A DNA stretch of 64,000 nucleotides from Pseudomonadales bacterium (lineage in GTDB: Bacteria > Pseudomonadota > Gammaproteobacteria > Pseudomonadales > Pseudohongiellaceae): assembly GCA_022822865.1 (NCBI GenBank), contig JAJDYJ010000032.1, positions 1 through 64,000 on the forward strand, read 5' to 3'. Each line of letters opens with the position of its first letter. Positions within the stretch are counted from its first letter, which is position 1. Under the pieces are notes generated by a model. It searched no databases. It was not told the origin of the DNA and was given only the letters and a program-made list of their open reading frames with translations. Position numbers and translations under genes: made by a program. Below, piece after piece: positions 1,816 to 51,059 of this stretch.

Positions 1816-2979
1816 ATGCCAGGTAACGAGGTGAGCCCAACTTCTACCCCAATTGCCGACTCGCGGGCTGCGCCGGTGCTCGTGACCGGCTCTGCCGGGC
1901 ACGTTGGCGCCAATCTCGTGCGCCGGCTGCTCGACGAAGGCGTCCGGGTAAGGGTCCTGCTGCGGCAGGAAGACAATAACCAGGCGCTGGAAGGCCTCGA
2001 TGTCGAGCGCGTCTGGGCGGATATCCGCTATCTCGACGCCACCCGGCGTGCGCTCGAAGGCTGCCAGGGGGTTTATCACGTCGCGGCGAAGGTCTCGACG
2101 ATCGACGGCAATATCGCCCATCGCCGGGAAATTTACGAATGTAACGTGGTCGGCACCCGCAACGTGCTGCAGGCCGCGCGCGATACCGAGGCCGGACGAG
2201 TGGTGGTAACGGGTTCCTTCAGCGCGGTGGGTTACGATCTCGACGATCCTTCGGCGCCGAGCGACGAAACGATGCAGTTCTATCCCATGGAGCGCACGAT
2301 GCCTTACGAGCGCAGCAAGACTCTCGTCGAGCATGAGTGCCTGCGCGCCGTCGCCAAGGGCCAGGATGTCGTCATCGCGACCTGTTGCGCCGTGGTCGGC
2401 GGCGCAGATTATCTCCCATCCCGCCTCGGCAGGACCATGTGCGACTACACCGACGGCAAGCTGCGCGCCTACATCGACGGCGGATTCGAGTTCGTCGCCG
2501 CGCGCGATATCGTCGCGGGCCATCTGCTCTGCATGGAGAAAGGGCGTTCTGGAGAAAAATACATCTTCAGTTCCGAATACAAGACCATTTCCGACATCAT
2601 CGACCTGTACGAGGAGGTCTCGGGAATTCCCCGCCCGAACCGGAGAATGCCCGCCAATCTCATGTATGCATTTTCGGAAGTGGCGAGTTTCTATCTGAGC
2701 CGCTTTCACCCGGAGTTTCCGCAACGATTCACCCCGGGCGCCATCCGTCTGCTGAAGAAGCGCCGGCACGCCAATCTCGCCAAGGCGAAAAACGAACTCG
2801 GCTACCGGCCGACGACCATCCGCGCGGCCGTGCATCAGGCTTACGCATTCCACTATCATGAGCGCAAGGCGATCACCAATCCGAACGCGAAACCGCCGTG
2901 TGAAGAATCGGCAAACCGGATCGAGAATCCGGTGCGCGAACAGGATATGCAGGTAACTGCGGGAGAAAGTTCAGCATGA
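1816..2979 (+). CDS. sdmB: NAD(P)-dependent sterol reductase SdmB-like (3beta-HSD/epimerase family)
   Basis: This 387-residue extended short-chain dehydrogenase has a nucleotide-binding TGSAGHVG motif near residues 23-30 and the catalytic pair Y164 and K168 in YERSK. Members of this 3beta-HSD/HpnA-like group act on sterols or sugars. Its position directly before a Rieske oxygenase (ATGA overlap) in a sterol operon matches SdmB, the reductase that works with SdmA in bacterial C-4 demethylation as described in Methylococcus capsulatus. It would act after SdmA has oxidised the C-4 methyl group, in decarboxylation and keto reduction. The alternative is a generic hopanoid-associated epimerase, which the neighbours make less likely. 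Confidence 0.82.
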   Translation: MPGNEVSPTSTPIADSRAAPVLVTGSAGHVGANLVRRLLDEGVRVRVLLRQEDNNQALEGLDVERVWADIRYLDATRRALEGCQGVYHVAAKVSTIDGNIAHRREIYECNVVGTRNVLQAARDTEAGRVVVTGSFSAVGYDLDDPSAPSDETMQFYPMERTMPYERSKTLVEHECLRAVAKGQDVVIATCCAVVGGADYLPSRLGRTMCDYTDGKLRAYIDGGFEFVAARDIVAGHLLCMEKGRSGEKYIFSSEYKTISDIIDLYEEVSGIPRPNRRMPANLMYAFSEVASFYLSRFHPEFPQRFTPGAIRLLKKRRHANLAKAKNELGYRPTTIRAAVHQAYAFHYHERKAITNPNAKPPCEESANRIENPVREQDMQVTAGESSA

Positions 2980-4073
2980 ACAAGGCAGTGAGCGCACCTC
3001 CCGGCTTTGAGGAGGCTTCCGGATTGCGCCAGAAATCGCGGGCCGCGGGCCTGGATCCGGATTACTGGTACGCGGTGGAAGAAGTGCGCAACGTCAAACC
3101 GGGGTCGATTGTCGAGGTTGTGTTCTGGAAGCGATCGATCGCATTGTTCCGGACGGCCGACGGCGAGTTTCACGCAGTCGAAAATCGCTGCGCCCATCGC
3201 CAGCTCAAACTGTCGCTCGGGCAAGTGGAAGGCTGCCGCCTGGTCTGCGGCTATCATGGCTGGGAGTATGACGAACAGGGCCGCGTAGTCGGCATTCCCG
3301 ACCTGTTCGGCCGGGAGAAAATACCCGATATCTCGATCAGAAGTTATCCGGTGCAAGTCCGCTACGGCCTGGTCTGGCTGTTTCCCGGCAATCCCGAACT
3401 TGCGGACCAGCGCCTTATCCCCGAGATTCCCGAAATCGAGGGGCCGGGCCGCTGGGCCTGCGTGCCGATCAGCTTCACATGCTCCGCTCACCATTCGATG
3501 ATCATCGACAACGTCAGCGACTTCTCCCACGCCTACCTGCATCGCAAGTACCGGCCCTTCGACGAGGCCGCGCTGTCTCACTTCGAAACCGAGGGCGACG
3601 ACGTCCATCTCGCCTACAACACGCGGGTCGGGCGCGGACGCATTTCAGGATTATTCGTCGACCACGACCGGCTCAACACCAATTTCATCAAGCTTTGCTA
3701 CCAGTATCCCTACCAGTGGTCGAACACCGACGACGAGATCAAGCACTGGCTGTTCGTGCTGCCCATCGACGAGCGCACTACCCGGACGTTCTTCCTGTTC
3801 TACTTCAAGTCGCTGAAAATCCCCTTGCTGCCGGTACGCATCCCGCGTTTCGCCATGACCGCGGTGATGAGGGTGTCGAACCGTTTGCTGATCGGCCCAC
3901 TGCTCGATCAGGACCGGGTCGCCGTCGAGGCGGAGCAAGTGGGTTATGAGCAACATTGGGACGCCCCCGCCATCGAGGTCAATCCGGTGGTCAGCGCATT
4001 CCAGCGAGTGACCGTTCGCAAGTGGCAGGAATACCTGGCTCGGGAAGCGGAGGCCGGCCATGCCGCCGCCTGA
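2976..4073 (+). CDS. sdmA: Rieske non-heme iron oxygenase SdmA-like (sterol C-4 demethylation)
   Basis: The protein has 365 residues. The Rieske [2Fe-2S] ligands are C72, H74, C91 and H94 (CAH followed by CGYH). A mononuclear iron site is visible as DFSHAYLH around residues 180-190. The architecture is that of ring-hydroxylating oxygenase alpha subunits with a C-terminal catalytic domain. In bacterial sterol pathways SdmA oxidises a C-4 methyl group, replacing the eukaryotic ERG25 enzyme. The gene overlaps sdmB by 4 nt and the sterol reductase by 14 nt, so translation is probably coupled. No ferredoxin or ferredoxin reductase gene is present here, so electrons must come from elsewhere. Confidence 0.85.
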   Translation: MNKAVSAPPGFEEASGLRQKSRAAGLDPDYWYAVEEVRNVKPGSIVEVVFWKRSIALFRTADGEFHAVENRCAHRQLKLSLGQVEGCRLVCGYHGWEYDEQGRVVGIPDLFGREKIPDISIRSYPVQVRYGLVWLFPGNPELADQRLIPEIPEIEGPGRWACVPISFTCSAHHSMIIDNVSDFSHAYLHRKYRPFDEAALSHFETEGDDVHLAYNTRVGRGRISGLFVDHDRLNTNFIKLCYQYPYQWSNTDDEIKHWLFVLPIDERTTRTFFLFYFKSLKIPLLPVRIPRFAMTAVMRVSNRLLIGPLLDQDRVAVEAEQVGYEQHWDAPAIEVNPVVSAFQRVTVRKWQEYLAREAEAGHAAA

Positions 4074-5163
4074 AACCGCGCTTGGGCCGATGCTGCTCTC
4101 AGGCGGCGTTCTTCTGGAAGCGGCGGTCATGCTGCTGGTGTTTATCGGCGCCCTGTTCGCCGGTTCCCTGTTCGTGCCGGGACGCATACTGGTTCTGACC
4201 GACGCAGAAAGCGGTAACAGGGAATTCAAACTGAACGGGTTTGCGCTGTTCCTGCTGGTCGTGGCCGTGGCCGCACTCGTCCAATACCTGGGCTGGTTCT
4301 CGTTTTCGTCGCTGTATACCCACTTCGCGGCGCTGTTCGTGACGGCCAATGTCTTCGCCTTCGCGTTTTCCGGCTGGCTGTACTGGCGCGGCGCGGGGAA
4401 GCCGAACGCGCCGGAGGGGTTCTGGCGCGGTTTCTTCATGGGCCGGGAACTCAATCCCACCTGCCTGGGCGTGGACCTGAAGATGTTCAGCTATCGGCCT
4501 TCCCTGATCGGCCTGGCGCTGCTGAACGTCTCATTCGCGGTCATGCAATTCGAGACCTACGGCGAGTTGACGCTGGGAATGACGCTATACCAGGTTTTCA
4601 CCTTCGTGTACGTGTTCAACTATTTCCAGTTCGAACAAGGCATGATCCACACTTGGGACATCGTCAGCGAGCGTTTCGGCTGGATGCTCGTCTGGGGCGA
4701 TTACGTGCTCGTGCCGTTTTTCTATTGTCTTGCCGGCTGGTGGCTGGTCGACGCATCCGGGCCCGCATTGTCACCCATCGCCGCCGCGGGAATCGTGTTG
4801 CTGTTCGTCTTCGGTTTCTGGCTGTTCCGGGGATCCAACCAGCAAAAGCACCGCTTCCGGCAGGACCCTGCAATCAGAATCTGGGGCAAACCCGTCGAAA
4901 CGCTCGATGGACGCCTGCTCGTCTCGGGTTTCTGGGGCATCGGGCGGCATCTCAATTACACCGGCGAGATCTGCGTCTATCTCTCTTTCGTCCTGACCAC
5001 GGGCTTTGTTTCCTGGGCGCCGTTCCTGCTGCCGGCCTGGCTGGCGGCATTGCTCGTGCAACGGTCGCGCCGCGATGAACGCCGCTGCCGCGCCAAGTAC
5101 GGCGAACTCTGGGAGCGCTACACACAGCGGGCGCGATTCGTGATGGTGCCATACGTTTACTGA
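4060..5163 (+). CDS. Sterol C-14 reductase, ERG4/ERG24 family
   Basis: This is a 367-residue polytopic membrane protein with about eight to nine hydrophobic helices. Signature segments of the ERG4/ERG24 family are GRELNPTCLGVDLKMF in the middle, GIGRHLNYTGE in the C-terminal third, and the closing RCRAKYGELWERY...VPYVY region. The family reduces the delta-14 double bond left by CYP51, using NADPH. Its place between SdmA and CYP51 fits that step. It overlaps sdmA by 14 nt and is 8 nt from cyp51. Related family members reduce delta-24 or delta-7, so the exact bond is inferred from context. Confidence 0.87.
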   Translation: MPPPETALGPMLLSGGVLLEAAVMLLVFIGALFAGSLFVPGRILVLTDAESGNREFKLNGFALFLLVVAVAALVQYLGWFSFSSLYTHFAALFVTANVFAFAFSGWLYWRGAGKPNAPEGFWRGFFMGRELNPTCLGVDLKMFSYRPSLIGLALLNVSFAVMQFETYGELTLGMTLYQVFTFVYVFNYFQFEQGMIHTWDIVSERFGWMLVWGDYVLVPFFYCLAGWWLVDASGPALSPIAAAGIVLLFVFGFWLFRGSNQQKHRFRQDPAIRIWGKPVETLDGRLLVSGFWGIGRHLNYTGEICVYLSFVLTTGFVSWAPFLLPAWLAALLVQRSRRDERRCRAKYGELWERYTQRARFVMVPYVY

Positions 5164-5171
5164 GGAACCGG

Positions 5172-6557
5172 ATGACACTGCATAGCGCGGAAGTATCAAG
5201 GGAAGCGACCAGGAAAATCCCCGAGATGAGCGGGGGCTGGCCCGTGCTCGGACATCTGCGGGAGTTCCAGCGCGACCCTGTCGCGACCTTGTATCGCGGC
5301 TGGGATGAGAACGGCGAGTTGTTCCAGTTCCGCATCGGCCCGCGCAAGTTCGTCGTGTTCGCCGGCCCCGAAGCCCACCACGCATATTTCAAGGCGCCCG
5401 AGGAGACGCTCGACCCCAAGTCGGTCTATCAGTTTACCGTGCCGATCTTCGGCCGCGGCGTAGCTTACGACGTTTCGTCCGAAGTCATGACCGAGCAACT
5501 CGGCTTCCTGTTTCCCGCGCTGCGGGAATCGGCGATGCGCCGTTACGTCCGCATCATGTTCGAGGAAGCGGAAAGCCTGGCCGGAACGCTTGGCGAGGAG
5601 GGAGAACTCGACCTGCCGTATGTCATGAACGAATTGACGGTCAATATCGCGAGCCGTTGCTTTCTCGGCGAGGAAATCCGCGGCGAGGTGGACTCCGGAT
5701 TCGCCGAGGCCTATCACGACCTCCAGAACGGCATCAACACCCTCGGCTTCTTTTTTCCGCGGCTGCCCACTCCCGCACATCTGACGCGCGACCGGGCGCG
5801 GCGCAAGATCACCGAAATTTTCAGCGGAATAATGAACGAAAGGCGGCGCACCGGGGCCCAGTCCGAAGATTTCATGCAGACGCTGATGGAGGCCCGCTAC
5901 AAGGACGGACGGCCCCTGAGCGACAATGAGGTTACGGGACTGTTGCTGACGGCCTTGTTCGCCGGCCAGCACACCAGCGCGGTGCTCGCGACCTGGACCG
6001 GTCTTGAATTGCACCGGGATATCCCCTATCTCGACCGGGTTCGCGACGAGATGCGCGAGATTTACAGCGAGGAAGGCGCTCTAAGCTATGCAGGCCTCAA
6101 GCAACAGGAGGTGCTGGAAAACGCGGTTCGCGAATGCGAGCGGCTGCACCCGCCGCTGATCATCCTGATTCGCAAGGCGCTCAGGCCCATGCCCTATGGC
6201 GATTACACGGTGCCCGCAGGCGCCCTGGCGGTAGTGGCGCCGGGACTCTCGCACCTCTTGCCGAACGTGTTTGCCAACCCCGAAAAGTTCAATCCCGACC
6301 GCTTCGCCCCACCCGACAGCGAAGAGAAGCAGCACCCCTACACCCTGATCGGCTTCGGCGGCGGCAAACACCGCTGCATGGGCAAGAACTTCGCCATCCT
6401 GCAAATCAAGGCCATCTGGGCGGTGCTGCTCGACCGCTTCGATTTCCAACTAGACGATCCGTTGCCCGCGCCGAATTACGGAAGCTGGGTGACAGGACCC
6501 AGGCTGCCATGCCGACTTCGCTACAGGCGCCGCTCGCAAGCCGGCGTTTTCCAGTAG
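5172..6557 (+). CDS. cyp51: Sterol 14alpha-demethylase, cytochrome P450 CYP51
   Basis: The protein has 461 residues. The I-helix AGQHTS motif is the hallmark of CYP51. The EXXR pair is ENAVRECER, and the heme-binding loop FGGGKHRCMG supplies the axial thiolate C402. No N-terminal transmembrane anchor is obvious, as is usual for bacterial CYP51. The enzyme removes the 14alpha-methyl group of lanosterol-type sterols in three oxygen-dependent steps, giving the delta-14 substrate of the upstream reductase. Its 3' end overlaps the next gene by 49 nt in another frame. A redox partner gene is not seen nearby. Confidence 0.92.
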   Translation: MTLHSAEVSREATRKIPEMSGGWPVLGHLREFQRDPVATLYRGWDENGELFQFRIGPRKFVVFAGPEAHHAYFKAPEETLDPKSVYQFTVPIFGRGVAYDVSSEVMTEQLGFLFPALRESAMRRYVRIMFEEAESLAGTLGEEGELDLPYVMNELTVNIASRCFLGEEIRGEVDSGFAEAYHDLQNGINTLGFFFPRLPTPAHLTRDRARRKITEIFSGIMNERRRTGAQSEDFMQTLMEARYKDGRPLSDNEVTGLLLTALFAGQHTSAVLATWTGLELHRDIPYLDRVRDEMREIYSEEGALSYAGLKQQEVLENAVRECERLHPPLIILIRKALRPMPYGDYTVPAGALAVVAPGLSHLLPNVFANPEKFNPDRFAPPDSEEKQHPYTLIGFGGGKHRCMGKNFAILQIKAIWAVLLDRFDFQLDDPLPAPNYGSWVTGPRLPCRLRYRRRSQAGVFQ

Positions 6558-9500
6558 GCGCTTCCGCGCTGCCCCACTACGACATTGCCATCGTCGGCGG
6601 GGGTCCGGTAGGCAGCCTTTGCGCGCTGGCCCATGCGCGCAAGGGCGCCAGGGTCGCCCTGCTCGAAGCCAATCCCAAGGCGGCCCAAAGGCTGGCCGGT
6701 GAATGGCTGCATCCGCCGGCCGTCCGGATGTTGCAAAGTATCGGCGTCAGCCTGGAAGGCCGGCCGGGCTTTTTCCCCGGCAAGGGATTCGTGGTGTTTC
6801 CCGAAGACCGGTCGGAGCCCATCCGACTGTCCTATCCGGCCGGCGCCGCCGGGCTGGTGTTCGAACATTCCGCCCTGGTCTCCTGTTTGCACGATACAGT
6901 CGAGAACCAGTCCGGAATCGATATCTATCGCCATGCGCGAGCGCGGACAATCGAAGAGGAGGGAATCGTTTTCAGCTTCGATGGCGCCGAACGCCTGCTA
7001 CAGGCCGGGCGGATCGTCGGCGCCGACGGCCGCGCCTCGATCGTGCGGCAATCGCTGGGTTTGCGGGCCGAGCGCATGACCTGCTCGCGCATGGTCGGGG
7101 TCGTGGCCGAAGGGGTGAAGCTGCAGCACGAAGAATTCGGCTATGTCGTGCTCGGCGCACCGGGACCCATGCTCACGGTGCCGCTGGGCGAGGGCCGCGT
7201 CCGCATCATCGCCGATATGCCATTGGAACTCTGGACGCCGCGGGACCGGATCGGCGTGTTGCTGGAATCTTACGCCGGTTACTTGCCGGAGGATCTCAGA
7301 TCCGCGTTTGTCGATGCGCTCCGGTCGGGGAGATTTCAGGCTGCCGCCAACGAGTTAAGGCCGCGTATGACCTACGGTTCCTCGCGCCGCGTGCTGATCG
7401 GCGACGCGGCCGGTCATTACCATCCGATGACCGCGGCCGGGATGACCCTCGGTTTCGGCGACGCTCTCGCCCTTGCCGAAGGCAAGAACTTCACGGAATT
7501 CGCGAATCGCCGGCTGAAGGAAACCAGGGCTCCGCAACTCCTCGCCATGGGGCTGTACGAAGTGTTCCGCGATCATCGGCTGGAGTCGTCGGTATTAAGG
7601 CAGGCCGTTTACCGGAACTGGCGGGCCAGCAAGCTGGTCCGGACCCGGACCATGCGCCTGCTTGCCTGTGAAGACGCTTCGGTGACGCGACTCGGCGTTG
7701 CGTTCAGCGCGACCGTGGCGACCGGAGTCGTGGGCGAGCTTGGGATGAAAAACGGCATTCTCACCTGGCGCCGGGCGCGAGCAATGATTCGTACGCTGGC
7801 GCTTCGGCTCGTGTGGCTGGTGCGGGGTGCGCGCGAACTGGAAAAGGCGCGCGGCGCCGGCGGGGCCGACGAACAGTCCGCCCTGGATAAACTGTCCGGA
7901 GCCTTTCTGGTTACCATGCGGGAGCATTCCGAAGTTGCGGAAACCGCTCGACCGAACGATCAAGCTCCCGTCGAAGCGGCTTCGGGGCTGGACCTTGCAG
8001 CGAAGCGCCTGGTGGACCTGCAGCGCGAAGACGGCGCCTGGGAAGGCGAGATGACCTGGTGTCCGATGCTTGCCGCGCAATACGTGCTGCTCCACTACCT
8101 GATCGGCCGGCAAATCGAACCCGACCGCCGCCGGCTGCTGCTGCGCCAGTTCGAACAGACCCGCCTTGATGGGGGTCTCTGGGGCCTGCACGAACACTCC
8201 CAGGCAAGCCTGTTCGTCACTACCCTGGTTTACGTCGCGGCCAGACTGCTCGGAGCCGGGCCGGACGACTCCCTGGTCAAGCCGGGCCGGGAATTCTTGC
8301 AGGAAGAAGGCGTTTTGAACATTCCGAGCTGGGGCAAGTTCTGGCTGGCGCTGCTGAATCTCTACGACTGGCGCGGAGTGAACGCCGTGCTGCCTGAATT
8401 GTGGAGTCTGCCGCGCCGATTGCCGCTGCATCCTTCGAACTGGTATTGCCATACCCGCCTCATCTACATGGCGATGGCGACGGTATATTCGCGCCGGTTC
8501 CAGGTTGCGGCAGACCCCTTGATCGAGTCTTTGCGCAATGAACTGTATCCGGAAGGTTTCGCCAGCGTTGATTTCACGGTCGGCCGAAATCGCCTGCGCG
8601 AGGCCGACCTGTTCGCCCGGCCCGGTTGGTGGCTGCGCGCCGGTTATGCGTTGACCCGAATCTACGAACGATTCCACGGCAAGCGCCTGCGCGCCCGCTG
8701 CCGGGAAGAACTGGTCGAGCGCATCCGCTGGGAATTGAGGAGTTCAAGCCATACCAGTATTTCCCCGGTCAGCGGCTTTCTCAACATTCTCGCCCTGTGG
8801 CTGCAAGACCCCGAAGACGGCGACTTCCACAAGGCCGTCGAGGGCCTCGAAGGCTGGATCTGGGAAGACGAGGAAAACGGAACGCGGATTACGGGTGCGC
8901 GCAGCGCATCCTGGGATACCGGATTCGCACTCCAGGCGCTGGCGACCATTTCCAACCGTGACGGTGTGCATCAGGCTCTCCGCAAGGGATCGGACTTTCT
9001 TCGCGGCCAACAGATTCCGGTCAGCTTCGACGGCTTCGGCGAGGCCTACCGCAACGACCCCAGGGGCGGATGGTGTTTTGCCGGCGAATGGCATGGCTGG
9101 CCCGTAACGGATTGCACCGCCGAGGCAGTGACCGGACTCATCGCCGCGGGCCCGGGCGAAGTGGACGAAAAGAGGCTCGGCGAGGCGATCGGGTTCATGT
9201 TGCGCGGCCAAAACCGCGACGGCGGCTTTGGCAGCTATGAAGCGAAGCGCTCGGGAATCAGCCTGGAGTGGCTGAATCCGGCGGAAATGTTCGGCGAATC
9301 GATGACCGAGCATTCGTATGTCGAATGCACTGCCTCCTGTCTCGCGGCGCTGGCGGCGTGCAAGCGGCGCTACCCTCAGGTCGTGGACGGAACAGCGATT
9401 GAATCCATGTCCCGGGCCAATGCCTGGCTGCGCCGGACCCAGGCGCACGACGGAAGCTGGCGCGGCGTCTGGGGCGTGCAATTCATCTATGGCGTCATGT

Positions 9501-9913
9501 TCGGCATCAGGGGCCTGCTTGCCGGAGGCGCGAGCCCCGGTGACCCGGCCCTGCGCCTTGCCGGTCACTGGCTGCTCGACCGCCAGCGGAGCGACGGCGG
9601 CTGGGGCGAACATCACAGCGGCTGCCTTAGCGGCGCATATGTCGCACATGAGCAAAGCCAGGTAATCCAGACCGCCTGGGCGCTGATCGCCCTGCTTGAG
9701 GCGGGAGATTCCCACTGGACCGCGATTTCGCGCGGGGTGCGGTTTCTGCTGGACGCACAGGACGAGGAGGGGGGTTGGCCGAAGCAGGACATGGCCGGCG
9801 TCTTTTTTCGCACGGCGCTGCTCGATTACGAGTTGTACCGGCAGTATTTTCCCCTGCACGCCCTCGGCCTCTACGAGCGGCGGCGGCGCGCCAGACAGGC
9901 TGAAGCCGGCTAG
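6509..9913 (+). CDS. sqe-osc: Natural fusion: squalene monooxygenase + oxidosqualene cyclase
   Basis: This is one uninterrupted reading frame of 1134 residues. Residues about 22-455 are a flavin monooxygenase: GGGPVG at 30-35, ADG around D173, and GDAAGHYHPMTAAGMT starting at G298, the squalene epoxidase GD motif. Residues about 490-1134 are a triterpene cyclase with QW repeats (QREDGAW, QNRDGGF, QAHDGSW, QRSDGGW, QDEEGGW). Its catalytic motif is DCTAE with D868 as proton donor, which is the oxidosqualene cyclase form rather than the DxDD of hopene cyclases. H862 and V866 precede it. The linker at about 440-490 is Ala/Arg-rich. The ATG at 6509 is the only start in frame before the FAD fold. 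In other sterol-making bacteria these enzymes are separate, often adjacent, genes. The fusion could channel 2,3-oxidosqualene. Confidence 0.93.
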   Translation: MPTSLQAPLASRRFPVGASALPHYDIAIVGGGPVGSLCALAHARKGARVALLEANPKAAQRLAGEWLHPPAVRMLQSIGVSLEGRPGFFPGKGFVVFPEDRSEPIRLSYPAGAAGLVFEHSALVSCLHDTVENQSGIDIYRHARARTIEEEGIVFSFDGAERLLQAGRIVGADGRASIVRQSLGLRAERMTCSRMVGVVAEGVKLQHEEFGYVVLGAPGPMLTVPLGEGRVRIIADMPLELWTPRDRIGVLLESYAGYLPEDLRSAFVDALRSGRFQAAANELRPRMTYGSSRRVLIGDAAGHYHPMTAAGMTLGFGDALALAEGKNFTEFANRRLKETRAPQLLAMGLYEVFRDHRLESSVLRQAVYRNWRASKLVRTRTMRLLACEDASVTRLGVAFSATVATGVVGELGMKNGILTWRRARAMIRTLALRLVWLVRGARELEKARGAGGADEQSALDKLSGAFLVTMREHSEVAETARPNDQAPVEAASGLDLAAKRLVDLQREDGAWEGEMTWCPMLAAQYVLLHYLIGRQIEPDRRRLLLRQFEQTRLDGGLWGLHEHSQASLFVTTLVYVAARLLGAGPDDSLVKPGREFLQEEGVLNIPSWGKFWLALLNLYDWRGVNAVLPELWSLPRRLPLHPSNWYCHTRLIYMAMATVYSRRFQVAADPLIESLRNELYPEGFASVDFTVGRNRLREADLFARPGWWLRAGYALTRIYERFHGKRLRARCREELVERIRWELRSSSHTSISPVSGFLNILALWLQDPEDGDFHKAVEGLEGWIWEDEENGTRITGARSASWDTGFALQALATISNRDGVHQALRKGSDFLRGQQIPVSFDGFGEAYRNDPRGGWCFAGEWHGWPVTDCTAEAVTGLIAAGPGEVDEKRLGEAIGFMLRGQNRDGGFGSYEAKRSGISLEWLNPAEMFGESMTEHSYVECTASCLAALAACKRRYPQVVDGTAIESMSRANAWLRRTQAHDGSWRGVWGVQFIYGVMFGIRGLLAGGASPGDPALRLAGHWLLDRQRSDGGWGEHHSGCLSGAYVAHEQSQVIQTAWALIALLEAGDSHWTAISRGVRFLLDAQDEEGGWPKQDMAGVFFRTALLDYELYRQYFPLHALGLYERRRRARQAEAG

Positions 9914-10074
9914 GAGCCTGCGCCGTAGGAATTCGCGATAGCGAAAATCCGATATCGCCGCGCCATTGGCTGATCGATTGAGGCGAATATTGGTGAATAT
10001 GCAACGAAATCGAGCGGCCAATGGCGCGAGTGAGAGCGGATTTGCAGCCGTGAATTCCTACGGCGCAGGCTCCT
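9912..10074. repeat. 163-bp imperfect palindrome between convergent genes
   Basis: Perfect 23-bp arms lie at 9912-9934 and 10052-10074. Inside them are 12-bp perfect arms at 9959-9970 and 10017-10028 (CGCGCCATTGGC and its complement). A third, imperfect pair lies near 9941-9951 and 10037-10045. The left arm begins inside the TAG stop codon of the squalene monooxygenase-cyclase gene. The right arm encodes the last residues of the squalene synthase. The size and symmetry resemble a MITE or an inverted duplication. It could also serve as a bidirectional terminator. Confidence 0.8.
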
Positions 10075-11122
10075 GGCCCGGCCTGGTCGGCAAACCCCTC
10101 GCGGCCCGGCGAAAGAGCCAGCGCAACCCGCGATCGCTTCGCAACATGATGTTGGTGGCCAGCACGGTCGCCCGCACGGAGCGCCGGGAAATCTTCACCT
10201 GATCGGACGAAGTAAAGCCTGGGTTCCGCTGAATCTTCCGCAAGGTCAGCACCGCCAGACCGAGAGCCCACAGGCAGAACCGGCGCATGCCTGCTTCCCT
10301 GGCGGGAAGACGGCAGGTGAACTCCATCGCGTTCCCCAGGTGGCCGTGGGCGATTGCAATCAGTGTATGCAGGCCGTTCTGGAACTCGCTGGTCCGGTGT
10401 TTCTCCTTCAGGTTCTCCAGCGAGAGGCCGTCATCGTCGAATACCGAACGCGGCAACCAGCAGGCGCCTCGTTCGCGGTCGGCCCAGATGTCCTTCAATA
10501 TGTTGGTCATTTGCAGCCCCTGGCCGAAAGAAACGGCCAGCGTTCGCAGTTCCGGACGATTTTCTTCGAGTTCCGGACATTGAATACAAAACAGATCGAC
10601 GAGCATCTCGCCCGCGACTCCGGCGACCGCATAGCAATACGCGTCGAGCTCCGGCAGATCGCGCAATCCCGCCAGACTGCTATTGCGCTGGAATTTCGGC
10701 ATATCGACGCACATGACGGATACGCAGCGCTCCAGAATCCGGCGCTCGGCTTCGGTAAACGAATGAGTGACGCCGACCACCCTGTCTGCGTTGCGCATCA
10801 GTTCCATTTCGGCCGGAGGAATGTCGGGGGAAAGCAGCGACGCCACCGAGGCCGAGAACGCGCTCGCGTCCTCCTGCCCCCTGACGGTGGCCAGGAAACG
10901 TTCGAGATTCGCCTCCTTCCGGCTGAAATCCAGACGGGGGTCGTCCTCGATCGTATCGGCGATGCGGCACAGCAGGTAGGCATTGGTTACCACCAATGCC
11001 AGGCGGCTCGGCAAGGTCGGAATCGTCAGCGCGAAAGTCCGGGATACGTCAGGCAGAATGGCTGCCTGGTATTGCAGATCCGCCTCCAGCGCGTCCGTAT
11101 TGTTCTTGGTCAAGTCAAGCAA
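10058..11122 (-). CDS. sqs: Squalene synthase (trans-isoprenyl diphosphate synthase, head-to-head)
   Basis: The protein has 354 residues. The first Asp-rich motif is DTIED at 56-60. The second is in TNILKDIWADRERG, followed by GACWLPR. Both bind Mg-diphosphate in the squalene/phytoene synthase fold. It would couple two farnesyl diphosphates to squalene, the substrate of the fused monooxygenase-cyclase that converges on it. The start is a TTG at 11122; no ATG in frame precedes the conserved region. The C-terminus, GQEPAP, is encoded by one arm of the palindrome at 9912-10074, so the native end has probably been altered. Hopanoid HpnC or HpnD is less likely given the sterol context. Confidence 0.85.
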   Translation of the reverse strand: MLDLTKNNTDALEADLQYQAAILPDVSRTFALTIPTLPSRLALVVTNAYLLCRIADTIEDDPRLDFSRKEANLERFLATVRGQEDASAFSASVASLLSPDIPPAEMELMRNADRVVGVTHSFTEAERRILERCVSVMCVDMPKFQRNSSLAGLRDLPELDAYCYAVAGVAGEMLVDLFCIQCPELEENRPELRTLAVSFGQGLQMTNILKDIWADRERGACWLPRSVFDDDGLSLENLKEKHRTSEFQNGLHTLIAIAHGHLGNAMEFTCRLPAREAGMRRFCLWALGLAVLTLRKIQRNPGFTSSDQVKISRRSVRATVLATNIMLRSDRGLRWLFRRAARGLPTRPGQEPAP

Positions 11123-11246
11123 TGTCCATTACCTGCTTGCACACGCTTCTTGCGCGACTGCGATACATACTAGCGCATTTCCGCTCGTTCAAGTTGTCAG
11201 CTTAAACTGTTACATTGCGTGCCACGTGACTTGCAGGGTAGCGACG

Positions 11247-12620
11247 ATGCCAAGAAGAATAGCAATCATCGGAGGAGGAGTGTCCGGGCTCGGGGTCGCC
11301 TGGGCTTTGCAACAGAACCCCGACCGGTTCGATTTCCGGCTATACGAAGCTCAGCCCCAGGTCGGCGGCAACGCCGTTACCGCCGACATGCCCCAGGACG
11401 ACGGCTCGTCGATCCCTTTCGACATATCCGTCACCGCCTGCATTCCCACGGTGTATCACCACATCCTGCTGGTGATGCGGCAACTCGGCGTCGAACTCAT
11501 CGATACGAAATTCAGCTATAGCGTGAAATACCAGGGTGAAATCTACGCTCACGATCTCGATACCGAAATCGGGCGCGAGTTGCGGGAGGAAATCGACCGA
11601 TTCCAGAAACTGCTGAAACGGCTGAAATGGTTCGGCGCGCTCAACCGGACCCGATCGAAATTTCTCAACGCGCTCAATCCCTTCAATTACCTGAGCATGG
11701 GCGCGGTGCTGAATTTCGGCCGTTATTCCGGCGACTTCAGATACAAGGTGCTCAAGCCGATGTTCGTCAACTTCCTGATGGCGACGAACGTTTTCGACAT
11801 GCCGGCATCGCTGTTCGCCCGCTACCTGGAATTCTTCGACATCGTCAACGCGACGCCGATGCAGACCTGGGACGGCGGCACGCGCAACATCTACGAAAAA
11901 CTGACGGAGTCCTTTCGCGACAGGATTTACCTGGCCCGGCCGGTGCGCAAGGTGATCCGGCGGGAAACCGAAGTGGAAGTTGTGGACGAGAACGGCGAGG
12001 CCGAAACCTTCGACGAGGTCGTGTTCGCCTGCAACGCCAACCAGACCCTGATGGCGCTCGATAAAGCGAGCTTTTTCGAGACCTGGCTACTGTCGTCGAT
12101 CCGCTACGAGAGCGAGTTGCACAACCACGCCATCGTCCACTCGGACGCATCCCTGCTGCCGGAAAACGAGGCGCAGCCGCTCGACACCCGCAGCAACCAT
12201 ATCGAGCAATACGCCTCCCGCCCCGACAATTACGAAATCACCTACATCATGCACAACCAGCAGCCCTGGGCGAAGCATTCGGACAAGCCCTGCCTGGTGA
12301 CCTACAACGCGATAAGCCCCATCGATGAAGGCAGGATCGTCAAGCGCTGGTGGTTCCAGCACGTCGTCCATGACGTGCGGCATATCGCGCTGCTCGTGCA
12401 CCTGTTCCGCTTCATTCAGGGCAGGCGGCGAAGCTGGCACTGCGGCGCCCATACGCTCATCAACAGCCAGGAGACCTGTTTCGTCACCGGCCTGGTCACG
12501 GCGCGGCAACTCGGCGCGGACTATCCCTTCGACGACAAGGAAGCCCGAAAGTGGTTCAACTTTTACGGGCGCATGATGTACGGCTGGCGCTTCAAGCGAG
12601 CGCGTTCTCGAACAGGTTGA
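11247..12620 (+). CDS. FAD-dependent oxidoreductase, COG2907-like
   Basis: The protein has 457 residues. The N-terminus RIAIIGGGVSGLGVAW is a dinucleotide-binding GxGxxG motif, followed by an acidic E and GG of the amine-oxidase/phytoene-desaturase superfamily. The region FDISVTACIPTVYHHI and the middle segment with MQTWDGGTRN resemble COG2907 predicted FAD/NAD-binding proteins. The ATG at 11247 lies directly before the FAD motif, so the longer upstream frame is not used. It is divergent from squalene synthase. In this locus it is a candidate for a sterol redox step such as side-chain or ring reduction, but no sequence feature proves this. Confidence 0.7.
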   Translation: MPRRIAIIGGGVSGLGVAWALQQNPDRFDFRLYEAQPQVGGNAVTADMPQDDGSSIPFDISVTACIPTVYHHILLVMRQLGVELIDTKFSYSVKYQGEIYAHDLDTEIGRELREEIDRFQKLLKRLKWFGALNRTRSKFLNALNPFNYLSMGAVLNFGRYSGDFRYKVLKPMFVNFLMATNVFDMPASLFARYLEFFDIVNATPMQTWDGGTRNIYEKLTESFRDRIYLARPVRKVIRRETEVEVVDENGEAETFDEVVFACNANQTLMALDKASFFETWLLSSIRYESELHNHAIVHSDASLLPENEAQPLDTRSNHIEQYASRPDNYEITYIMHNQQPWAKHSDKPCLVTYNAISPIDEGRIVKRWWFQHVVHDVRHIALLVHLFRFIQGRRRSWHCGAHTLINSQETCFVTGLVTARQLGADYPFDDKEARKWFNFYGRMMYGWRFKRARSRTG

Positions 12621-47374: not shown

Positions 47375-49372
47375 CTAATTTGCCGTGCCGGGGAGGATTT
47401 CGAAGCCGGGGGCGAAATTCACCAGTACCGAGGCTAATTGCGTCAGTACCGTAGCATCGCCTTGTATCGAGCCCTGGACGGCCTGCAACAGCTCTTCCAG
47501 GGTCGTATTGCCCATGATGACCTCGTTCAGTCGCTCGCGGTCGATACTGACGGTTACGTCCGGCGTCTCCGCCTGAAAGCCCTCGATATTGGTCAGCGTA
47601 CCGCCGCTCAACTCCACGACGAACTGCTGGCCGGTATCCGGGGTAAGGAAGTTCATCGTGAAACCCATGCCGTCGGCGCGCTCGCTATCGACGCGAATGG
47701 CGACCGAGTCCCACCATTGCGAAGTGGTCATGGCCCTGGCCAGACTCGGGCTCGTTCCGCGCGGGGCGGGTATGCGCGGCATGCCGTTGCGCAATTCCTG
47801 GGCGGCGGCGAGGAAAACGTTCCTCATGCTCGCGCTTTCGTACTGGTAGCCGAGTTGCTCGAAGACCGCGGCGAGCAGGTTCTTCGCCTCCCGGTTGCCG
47901 GGCTCGGCGTAGACGAGCTTGTTCAGAATCTCCATCGCCAGCCGGTATTGCCCGTCGTCGTGCAAGGCCCGGGCCCTTTCGAGAATCGGTTCCGCGCCGC
48001 CCATCATTTCCACATACAGCGGCGCCGAATCCGCCGGCGACAATGGCGCCAGCGTGGCCGGGTTGGCGTCCCAGTAGCCGAGATAGCGGTTCAGCACGGC
48101 GCGGGAGTTATGAAACTCCGAGCCGTGATACTGGCGCACGCTCCATTGCCGCCGCAGCGATTCGGGGACGCGGTAACGGTTGTGAATCTCGTTGACGGTG
48201 ACGCCCTGATTGGCCAGATGCAGCACCTGGTTGTTCAGATTGGCATAGGCGTCGCGCTGGGCGCGCATGACCTGCTGGATGCGCTCGTTGCCCCAGCGCG
48301 GCCAGTTGTGCGAGGAAATCATGACTTCCGCTTCGCGGCCGAAGCGGTACAGCGCCTCGTTGATCTGCCGCGCCCATTGCAAGGCGTCCCGGACCAGGGC
48401 GCCGCGCAAGGTGTAGACGTTGTGCACGGTGGCCGAGATGTTTTCCGCCGCCCAGAATACGCGCCGGTCAGGAAACCAGGCGTTCATTTCGGCGGGGGCT
48501 TCGGTGCCCGGCGTGTTCTGGAAAACGATGCGCACGCCATCGATTACGTGTTCCTCGAAGTCTTGCCTGATTACCACGGTCGGCGCGATCAGACCCGTCG
48601 TGCCCGCCGAAAGTCCCTTGCCGATGGCCGAGTCGACCTGGCCGAAAGGGCTCGAAGGAATGGCGCGCCCGTATTGCATCACCGCCCGGCGCGACATCGC
48701 CGTGCCGGCGTACACGTTCTCGGAAACGGCTTCCTGCATGAAGCCCAGGGGAGCGATGACCCGGACCTCGCCCGCGTTGACCTGGTCTTCCGTGATTACG
48801 CCGAGCACGCCGCCGAAATGATCGATATGGGAGTGGGAATAAACCACCGCCCTGACCGGTAATTCGCCCAGCGTTTCGCCGGCGAGCGCCAGCGCCGCCG
48901 CCGCGGTTTCGGCGGTCAGCAGCACGTCGAACAGGATCCAGCCGGTATCGCCCCGGATCAGGGTCATGTTGGCCAGATCGAAGCCCCGCACCTGGTAGAT
49001 GAAATCCGGCACGACTTCGTACAGGCCGAAATTCATGTTGAGCAGGGCCTGGCGCTGCAATGAGGGATGAATCGAATCGAACTCCTCGCCCGCGAGCAGG
49101 AAATCGTAACGGCTCATGTCCCAGACGACATTGCCGGCGGCGCCGAAAATCCGCCTTGAGGCGGGTTCGGCGATCAGGCCGCGGCGCGACTCCTCGAAAT
49201 CCCGCTCATCCTCGAACGGAAGCGAATCGCGCAATGCGGCCTGCAAGGCGCGAGTATGTTCGCTCGGCCCCGCGCCGGCGGGATTGAAATGCTCCTGGGA
49301 AAACGCCAGGCAGGACCAGACAACGCCCAACAGCACGGCGCTGCCGGAAACGAGAGAACGGCAAGTTCTCAT
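47375..49372 (-). CDS. Exported alkylsulfatase, SdsA1-type metallo-beta-lactamase fold
   Basis: The protein has 665 residues with a signal peptide ending near AFSQ. The MBL-fold zinc motif is SHSHIDHFGG; downstream metal ligands lie in APAEMNAWFP and ENISATVHNVYTL. A helical dimerisation region (MMGGAEPILERARALHDDGQ) and a C-terminal SCP2-like domain (RVDSERADGMGFTMNF onward) complete the class III alkylsulfatase architecture of SdsA1. It would hydrolyse alkyl sulfates such as SDS-like surfactants and sulfated lipids in the periplasm. The TPR protein gene precedes it by 19 nt and could be co-transcribed. Confidence 0.92.
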   Translation of the reverse strand: MRTCRSLVSGSAVLLGVVWSCLAFSQEHFNPAGAGPSEHTRALQAALRDSLPFEDERDFEESRRGLIAEPASRRIFGAAGNVVWDMSRYDFLLAGEEFDSIHPSLQRQALLNMNFGLYEVVPDFIYQVRGFDLANMTLIRGDTGWILFDVLLTAETAAAALALAGETLGELPVRAVVYSHSHIDHFGGVLGVITEDQVNAGEVRVIAPLGFMQEAVSENVYAGTAMSRRAVMQYGRAIPSSPFGQVDSAIGKGLSAGTTGLIAPTVVIRQDFEEHVIDGVRIVFQNTPGTEAPAEMNAWFPDRRVFWAAENISATVHNVYTLRGALVRDALQWARQINEALYRFGREAEVMISSHNWPRWGNERIQQVMRAQRDAYANLNNQVLHLANQGVTVNEIHNRYRVPESLRRQWSVRQYHGSEFHNSRAVLNRYLGYWDANPATLAPLSPADSAPLYVEMMGGAEPILERARALHDDGQYRLAMEILNKLVYAEPGNREAKNLLAAVFEQLGYQYESASMRNVFLAAAQELRNGMPRIPAPRGTSPSLARAMTTSQWWDSVAIRVDSERADGMGFTMNFLTPDTGQQFVVELSGGTLTNIEGFQAETPDVTVSIDRERLNEVIMGNTTLEELLQAVQGSIQGDATVLTQLASVLVNFAPGFEILPGTAN

Positions 49373-49391
49373 CTGGATTCCGCAATCACCC

Positions 49392-51059
49392 TTACAAGCG
49401 CGAGCGTTCGAGTTCCACGTCGGCATTGCGCCAGAGCGAATCGAACTGGCGCTTGACGATGATGGCCTCCTGGGTCTTGCCCTGGGCTTCGAGCGCCTGG
49501 GCGAGGCCGAAAGTCGACCAGCCGTTCTGCTGGTTCCACTCCAGGTCCTTGCGATAGACCGCTTCGGCGTCCTCCGCCCGGCCCGCCGTCAGCATCGCCG
49601 CGCCCAGATACAGGCGCATGGACTGGGACCAGTCCGGCGGCTCGGTGTAATTGTTGGCGTCCTGCATTTCCACCGCGGCCTGGTAATGGGCGATGGCGGA
49701 ATCGAGATTACCGCGCGCTTCGGCGATTTCGCCTTGCAGCGCATGGGTCGCGATTCCCAGCACGTGCGAAGCCGGCGTAGGCCCGACCCCGGTATCGTCC
49801 ACGCCGTCGGCTACGGCCTGGGCCTGGATATTGGCCAGTTCGGCTTCGGCCGCGTCAAGCTGGCCGTCGGCGACATAGGCGCTGCCGCGCACATAGCTCC
49901 ACATGCCGTCGAGATATGGCGTGCCGCCATGGCTTTGCTCGCTTTCGAGGATGCGGTCCCATTTGCCGAAGACCTTGTCCACTACCCAGGAATGCACCAC
50001 GCGCTTCTCGCCGCGGTTCACGGCTTCGGCGGCCGTGCCGACGCTGGCGGCGCCGCGCTGGGCCGCCTCGAACGAATCCGCGTAGTTGCCTTGCAGCATG
50101 TTTGCATAGCGCACGAAATCGAGCGCGTGAGGCGCGTGGGACTTGTGGGAAAGTCCGTAGGTGCCGATCATCGGCATTTGGTTGTCGCCCCAGATTTCGG
50201 CGAACTGCAGATCGACGATCTGGGAGCGTTCGTTGGTCGAAATCGCCTTTTCGTATTCGCCCACGCGCAGATAGATGTGCCCGGGCATATGCACCATGTG
50301 TCCCGCAATCGGCACGCTGCCTTCCAGCTTCTGCGCCGAAGGCATGGCCAGTTCGGGTTCGTTGGAAGCTTCCATCAGGTGGATGTAGAGATGGTTGGCG
50401 CCGGGATGGTCGTGTTCGACCGCCATGGCGGCTTCGAGCGCGGCGCGGGCCTCGGCGACCCCGGGTCGGGGCGAACCGTCGGGCTCCCAGTAATCCCAGC
50501 GGGTGGTGTTCATGAACGCTTCGGCGAAGATGGAAGCGATGTCGGCGTCATCGGGGTACTTGTGATGCAAGTCGCGCATGGCGCTGACGAAGGCCTGGTC
50601 CCGCTCGCGGTCGTCGGCGATCGCGTCCGCGTTGTAGAGCACGAACAGCGCGTTGACCATGTCCCGCTCGCGCTCGGTGCCGTTGTTGACGCGCTCGAGC
50701 GCGTTACGGATCGCTTCGAGGCCGGCGCCCTGTGGGTCGTCCGGCAGGCCGGCGTAGCGGCTGTTGGGATTGGGTCCGGCGGCGTGAGCCAGACCGAAAT
50801 ATGGCATGGGGTGATCCGGGTCGTGGCGCGAAGCTTCCTGGTAGGAAGCGATGGACTCCGGAAAGTAAAAGCTCCAGGCCATGCGCAGACCCTGGTCGAA
50901 AAAGGCCTGGGCTTCGGGCGAATCGGTCGAAATCGGCCTGCTGTAAGTGCCGCCGCCGGGAATCAGAATGGCGAGCGCCTCGCCTTCCTGGGCCGCGGCC
51001 ATGTTCCAGGACATCGCGGCCGTCAGCCAGCCGGCGGTGAGAATCATGAATCTTTTCAC
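49392..51059 (-). CDS. Exported TPR-repeat protein
   Basis: The protein has 555 residues. The start is GTG 51059 with GAGG 8 nt upstream; an in-frame ATG at 51047 is possible. A signal peptide ends near MAAAQ. Tetratricopeptide helices run through the whole mature part, for example FDQGLRMAWSFYFPESIASY, then AHALQGEIAEARGNLDSAIAHYQAA and AGRAEDAEAVYRKDLEW, read in parts. HMVHMPGHIYLRVGEYEKA is a conserved His-rich element of this family. Function unknown; probably a scaffold or substrate-binding protein near the alkylsulfatase. Confidence 0.82.
   Translation of the reverse strand: MKRFMILTAGWLTAAMSWNMAAAQEGEALAILIPGGGTYSRPISTDSPEAQAFFDQGLRMAWSFYFPESIASYQEASRHDPDHPMPYFGLAHAAGPNPNSRYAGLPDDPQGAGLEAIRNALERVNNGTERERDMVNALFVLYNADAIADDRERDQAFVSAMRDLHHKYPDDADIASIFAEAFMNTTRWDYWEPDGSPRPGVAEARAALEAAMAVEHDHPGANHLYIHLMEASNEPELAMPSAQKLEGSVPIAGHMVHMPGHIYLRVGEYEKAISTNERSQIVDLQFAEIWGDNQMPMIGTYGLSHKSHAPHALDFVRYANMLQGNYADSFEAAQRGAASVGTAAEAVNRGEKRVVHSWVVDKVFGKWDRILESEQSHGGTPYLDGMWSYVRGSAYVADGQLDAAEAELANIQAQAVADGVDDTGVGPTPASHVLGIATHALQGEIAEARGNLDSAIAHYQAAVEMQDANNYTEPPDWSQSMRLYLGAAMLTAGRAEDAEAVYRKDLEWNQQNGWSTFGLAQALEAQGKTQEAIIVKRQFDSLWRNADVELERSRL

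Follow-up and report, generated by a model that had tools for sequence, protein, structure and literature searches.

A squalene epoxidase–oxidosqualene cyclase fusion predicted in a Pseudomonadales genome, and evidence for its re-splitting among relatives

A fused squalene epoxidase–oxidosqualene cyclase of 1134 amino acids is encoded at positions 6509..9913 (forward strand) in a Pseudomonadales bacterium (GTDB family Pseudohongiellaceae; contig JAJDYJ010000032.1), as indicated by translation, Pfam and NCBIfam models, relatives and an AlphaFold2 (AF2) model. All positions refer to the window, that is, the whole stretch of 64,000 nucleotides that was analysed. Judged from sequence comparison, this single chain would very likely convert squalene to 2,3-oxidosqualene and then to lanosterol, thereby opening the pathway encoded by a sterol gene cluster, and it probably has a history in which fusion was followed by splitting. 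Squalene epoxidation and oxidosqualene cyclisation form the O2-dependent entry to sterols and, if this account is true, evolution has first joined these two steps and later separated them again. The architecture itself is already known; what is new here is the evidence that the fusion was split again.

The fused gene and its predicted reactions

A preliminary description of this DNA had reported an uninterrupted 1134-codon frame at 6509..9913, which translation bears out: the frame runs through 1134 residues to its stop codon with no internal stop. The mechanically defined open reading frame begins earlier, at 6134, within the preceding CYP51 gene, and the ATG at 6509 overlaps the 3′ end of that gene (6557) by 49 bases. 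This ATG is the likely start, because the five nearest relatives listed (P0002-P0006) are also each 1134 amino acids long. An alternative start at codon 16 was considered; since that codon is GTA, which is no start codon, the ATG at 6509 was retained.

The same description had placed a complete FAD monooxygenase of the squalene epoxidase type and a complete cyclase in this frame, and both domains are indeed found above the Pfam cut-offs. FAD_binding_3 (82 bits, cut-off 22) and SE (PF08491; 64.9 bits, gathering cut-off 20.1) together span residues 24-386, and the two cyclase halves, SQHop_cyclase_N (155.3 bits, cut-off 26.2) and SQHop_cyclase_C (179.9 bits, cut-off 26.1), span residues 496-1123. 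The squalene epoxidase (SE) domain is assigned to residues 22-449 (6572..7855, forward strand), which include two long C-terminal helices (392-412 and 417-446), and the oxidosqualene cyclase (OSC) domain to residues 488-1130 (7970..9898, forward strand), within which the expected DCTAE motif is found at residues 868-872 (9110-9124, forward strand). The linker between them, at about residues 450-487 (7856..7969, forward strand), is delimited by conservation, by pLDDT and by the break points of split gene pairs: conservation is 0.46-0.60 per 20-residue block over residues 441-500, lower than in the flanking domains, and pLDDT falls under 50 at residues 473-483.

The AF2 model, a single model built from 49 fusion sequences that gives the domain orientation but no estimate of inter-domain error, has a mean pLDDT of 83.8 and a pTM of 0.85. 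In this model, residues 22-449 superpose on residues 122-572 of human SQLE (6c6r), from which the epoxidase half appears to be complete, C-terminal helices included, and residues 488-1130 superpose on residues 71-727 of human OSC, lanosterol synthase (1w6k). Each half is thus like its human counterpart in predicted fold over the catalytic length, whereas the human enzymes are two proteins, with 20% and 37% identity to the respective halves of the fusion. The GxGxxG, DG and GD-type motif stretches of the SE half align with human SQLE.

In the cyclase half, matches to human lanosterol synthase were read by hand from the alignment. H232, W387, F444, V453 and D455 of the human enzyme are kept as H648, W802, F857, V866 and D868, and C456, Y503, C533, W581 and F696 are kept as C869, Y910, C940, W988 and F1099; two other relevant positions differ, T381 being replaced by A797 and Y98 by M515. 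The top NCBIfam model for the fusion is 2,3-oxidosqualene cyclase (TIGR03463), at 726.6 bits against a cut-off of 851; the model for squalene/oxidosqualene cyclases (TIGR01787) is passed (497.3 bits, cut-off 322.7), and that for squalene-hopene cyclase (TIGR01507) is failed (256.5 bits, cut-off 431.1).

That the cyclase half gives some other triterpene (cycloartenol, an arborane-type compound or another), or cyclises squalene itself, is in our judgement quite improbable. The score of the top model under its cut-off and the differences at T381 and Y98 would fit such a product, and a bacterial OSC that produces arboranes is known. Against it, the hopene cyclase model scores far below the squalene/oxidosqualene cyclase model, the neighbouring genes are by homology a CYP51 and a Delta14-reductase, which act on lanosterol-type sterols, and V453 is kept, valine at this position being the lanosterol-synthase state according to the legend of Figure 7 in PMC4919349.

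The fusion is real, complete and probably functional. With lanosterol as the preferred product, the FAD domain would epoxidise squalene with O2 to 2,3-oxidosqualene, which the cyclase domain would convert to lanosterol. Both domains may be bound to one and the same membrane leaflet and connected through a flexible linker of ~40 residues, and oxidosqualene could be handed over locally between them; the later enzymes of the pathway would then yield a sterol demethylated at C-14 and partly at C-4. The fusion is a candidate part for bacterial lanosterol production.

The sterol gene cluster

The genes of the window cluster lie on one strand in the order SdmB-SdmA-ERG24-CYP51-(SE-OSC), followed by squalene synthase on the opposite strand. 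The first gene (1816..2979, forward strand) encodes an SdmB-like NAD-dependent 3-beta-HSD/epimerase with a predicted role in C-4 sterol demethylation (NCBIfam SdmB, 303 bits; Pfam Epimerase and 3Beta_HSD), and the second (2976..4073, forward strand) an SdmA-like Rieske 4-beta-methylsterol monooxygenase (NCBIfam SdmA, 412 bits; Pfam Rieske and VanA_C), both scores being under the equivalog cut-off of 600. They are followed on the forward strand by a Delta14-sterol reductase of the ERG24 family at 4060..5163 (Pfam ERG4_ERG24, E 4e-70), of which the best solved match is the Delta(14)-sterol reductase 4quv (E 8e-66), and by a CYP51 sterol 14-alpha-demethylase at 5172..6557 (Pfam p450; best solved matches CYP51 entries, E 2e-105). 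The squalene synthase gene (10058..11122, reverse strand) is convergent with the fusion and is assigned by Pfam SQS_PSY (E 1e-51) and by matches to solved squalene synthases; its NCBIfam squalene synthase score of 86.7 bits is under the cut-off of 286.75. Based on the families of these neighbouring enzymes, the window genome probably encodes the steps that lead from farnesyl diphosphate to a sterol demethylated at C-4 and C-14.

Much of this arrangement recurs around related fusions. The four upstream genes are present in order at 56 of the 66 loci (out of 80) that have at least 4.8 kb of upstream sequence; at the other ten, at least one of the four is missing from its place, and at five of these all four are. 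Squalene synthase is present at 10 of the 80 related loci. Beyond it in the window, an FAD amine-oxidase-like enzyme of uncertain start is encoded at 11232..12620 on the forward strand (Pfam Amino_oxidase; nearest solved relative LkcE), with a close homologue at 18 of the 80 fusion loci; in most of the distant loci the match starts near residue 84 of the mechanical open reading frame. The sterol C-24 methyltransferase family PF08498 is matched in 24 of the 26 genomes queried, including two matches on other contigs (C50 and C39) of the window's own genome, which bears on side-chain alkylated sterols and sterane biomarkers. Elsewhere in the window, an alkyl-sulfatase-like protein with a weak C-terminal match to an SCP-2 sterol-transfer domain is encoded at 47375-49426 on the reverse strand.

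Relatives and previously described systems

Among 7984 candidates scored, 669 proteins match the fusion at E<=0.001. The best 120 of these are all full-length fusions of 1116-1186 amino acids with SE and cyclase Pfam domains, 64-96% identical across at least 97% of the query. The database check for proteins that align with both domains end to end, proposed in the preliminary description, has returned them in number, and the suggestion made there that the architecture could be undescribed fails: in addition to these matches, a bifunctional squalene epoxidase/sterol cyclase, msbE, was reported in 2020 from a symbiont of the sponge Melophlus (PMC7074536), and fused SMO/OSC proteins appear in PMC10070321.

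When genomes were scanned, each species being represented by one, 126 relatives came up; 80 were retained for study and 46 left out. By NCBI ranks, the 80 comprise Pseudomonadota (46), Chloroflexota (9), Actinomycetota (8), Nitrospirota (6), Binatota (2), Rhodothermota (2), Bacteroidota (2), Acidobacteriota (1), Gemmatimonadota (1) and unnamed organisms (3), so that among these 80 of the 126 relatives the fusion occurs in nine named bacterial phyla. Within smaller groups its occurrence is sporadic. A full-length match was found in 6 of 61 genomes of the window's own genus and a fused frame in 3 of 369 genomes drawn from its own class (verified for G123 and G274). Of 198 genomes from the class to which G473 belongs, G473 is the only one with the fusion, whereas of 198 from the order that includes G485, five show a cyclase match at E 0, in fusion-sized frames of 1120-1484 codons. 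Titles with jk18x naming, as used for the isolates of Kelly et al. 2022 (PMC9531527), account for 20 of the 80 loci, and two further titles (L029 and L049) name Spongia or sponge; many of the titles look like those of sponge metagenome bins, which the jk18x names and these two titles bear out for their own loci. A literature search on three candidate host genus names returned two papers, neither of them about sponges by title. As a single-chain enzyme of many uncultured bacteria, the fusion bears on the source of sponge sterols and on the origin of the sterane fossils used for dating early animals.

The source genome is a 105-contig draft, in which an assembly or binning artefact could in principle have joined two neighbouring genes. 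The chance of this is negligible, because independent assemblies of other genomes show the junction too. Both halves lie in one stop-free frame at 84 of 87 loci (the 80 relatives, six from same-genus and own genomes, one of which, L103, duplicates L023, and the window itself), three of the 84 ending at a contig edge. Moreover, a single-contig genome of the same genus (G056) holds the fusion at 85% identity, and the junction in the window lies away from the contig end. Two loci, L070 and L086, each carry one in-frame stop, from either sequencing error or decay, inside an otherwise continuous fusion; the stops align with residues 665 and 1026 in the protein of the window. A second fusion, ~60% identical, occurs in the same bin as the window (L102, on C47, 5045 bases), with one in-frame TAG and a cut at the contig end. 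It is possibly a stray contig from another organism, given its GC content of 0.571 against 0.619 in the window.

MsbE is the closest described system, and the window fusion is assigned as MsbE-type by domain order, gene content and the cyclase valine. As described in PMC7074536, MsbE belongs to a gammaproteobacterial symbiont of Melophlus sarasinorum and has, as here, an N-terminal epoxidase and a C-terminal cyclase with the lanosterol valine, to which V866 of the window fusion corresponds at the human V453 position; the fusion would work like MsbE. The genes msbA-D are given there as an oxidoreductase, a Rieske oxygenase, a sterol reductase and a C-14 demethylase (PMC7074536), a content equal to that of the window cluster. 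The two systems differ in that squalene synthase is on another scaffold in the msb system and beside the fusion in the window, and in that the methyltransferase gene msbF lies inside the msb locus (PMC7074536), whereas the methyltransferase matches of the window genome are on other contigs. A protein labelled 'uncultured bacterium' (P0096; 1153 amino acids, 66% identical to the window fusion) may be MsbE itself (MT026193).

The Methods of Brown et al. 2023 mention, in one sentence, "fused SMO/OSC homologs" of the same architecture that were trimmed for a tree; in the main text of that paper 'fused' occurs once and 'fusion' never, and no function of the fusion was found there (PMC10070321). Steroid-gene clusters (CSGs) with ERG24-CYP51-LSS operons were described by Kelly et al. 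2022 from Ircinia symbionts of 11 classes and 10 phyla, with evidence for horizontal transfer and purifying selection; the gene is termed lanosterol synthase there, and the words fused, epoxidase and monooxygenase are absent from the main text (PMC9531527). Another protein fusion of the bacterial sterol pathway, the CYP51-ferredoxin of Methylococcus capsulatus, joins a demethylase to its ferredoxin, whereas the fusion considered here joins two consecutive steps (PMC13277303). A literature search conducted mostly without subscription journals, preprints and supplements found neither a biochemical test of an SE-OSC fusion nor a report of fusion splitting.

History of fusion and splitting

Searches with each half alone returned lone cyclases, many of 644-652 amino acids, and lone epoxidases, many of 444-478 amino acids, which were often listed with contigs of equal size. 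In an OSC tree of 171 rows, in which 86 of the 120 listed half-alone matches served as unfused rows, 51 of the unfused group together, with a support of 100, inside a mostly fused radiation. Likewise, in a concatenated SE and OSC tree of 102 rows (thinned from 114), a clade of 24 unfused rows has a support of 100 and is nested in a starred set of 84 rows that also holds 56 fused rows. Grouping of all fused proteins as one clade was rejected with the concatenated data (AU p 6.2e-5) and with SE alone (p 3.1e-6). Six of the 87 loci (three with a stop and three cut in the cyclase) and the duplicate L103 were left out of the trees. Long branches meet at the outgroup in the concatenated and SE trees, and the concatenated tree, its AU test and the label test described below were run without a mixture model. 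Of the 30 in-family unfused pairs in the concatenated tree, 26 were paired by equal size of their listed contigs; for three (L188-L190) both genes were seen on one contig, and the partner assigned to L139 is an SE that its genome carries on a different contig.

Direct views of split genes come from the family of G473, in which 10 of 51 genomes match at E<=1e-60: seven have fusions and three have SE-then-OSC gene pairs on one strand. The paired genes are in different frames with 46-101 bases between them, SE homology stopping at residues 478-486 and OSC homology restarting at 488-489, so that these relatives break near the linker end, at about residues 478-489. A single in-frame stop is recorded for three of these seven fusions; in one of them it was placed at residue 14, and in the other two no stop was seen within the alignments.

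The fusion was probably re-split at the linker in the unfused clade, and the simplest reading is that the domains were fused once, early on, and came apart later. In a hand-picked tree of 65 rows with deeper relatives, the 58-row family clade has fused proteins on each side of its first division (support 84-90, unstarred), with unfused rows outside the family clade including proteins named from Moorea and Hormoscilla. We therefore regard it as fairly likely that the fusion arose once, in the common ancestor of the family, spread over at least nine phyla, apparently largely in sponge symbionts, and subsequently came apart at the linker more than once, most clearly in one large clade including Acidimicrobiaceae.

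The opposite course, in which separate SE and OSC genes are ancestral in the family and fusion arose several times independently, appears unlikely. It would suit two outgroup gammaproteobacterial genomes, G231 and G343, in which the same two reactions are predicted for adjacent genes encoding two proteins in the order OSC then SE, the OSCs being about 46% and 33% identical to that of the fusion. State changes between fused and unfused number 5, 7, 8 and 17 on the concatenated, SE, 65-row and 171-row OSC trees, respectively, which agrees with repeated fusion, although these counts alone are unable to tell gain from loss. Weighing against repeated fusion are the fused rows on each side of the first division of the family clade, the SE-then-OSC order and the 88-105 residues between domain matches that the fusions share, and the opposite order in the outgroup genomes. 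An origin of the fusion by read-through of an ancestral OSC-SE pair is likewise unsupported, because the OSC-then-SE order of both these genomes is the reverse of that in the fusion.

Wholesale horizontal mixing was also considered and set aside. On the concatenated tree, phylum or class labels require 9 changes against a minimum of 8 (64 labelled rows, with the window entered as Gammaproteobacteria, and 38 unlabelled rows), and a single clade of Gammaproteobacteria was not rejected with the concatenated data (p 0.675). The class labels are thus arranged on the tree almost as vertical descent alone would leave them, which points to a few old transfers between phyla followed by mostly vertical descent.

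The fusion may have been kept because oxidosqualene is channelled between the domains, a proposal that is compatible with the single early fusion and that we hold only tentatively. The two reactions are consecutive and lie within one chain, and purifying selection on the cluster genes has been reported for Ircinia symbionts (PMC9531527); the persistence of a large clade with separate genes speaks against it. Because some relatives encode SE and OSC in two neighbouring genes, we argue that the covalent SE-OSC link would not be indispensable. With matched natural fused and split enzymes, channelling of oxidosqualene would be directly testable.

The number of splits is uncertain, since some single unfused rows are probably effects of contig edges or gene calls; several of them stand beside nearly identical fused rows in the OSC tree, and the OSC part of one is identical to that of a fused row. 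G268 is a candidate for a further split, its family-mate G123 being fused. Its lone cyclase is 58% identical to the fused one, and a relative of the epoxidase is encoded on a different contig of G268 (L139 and L146).
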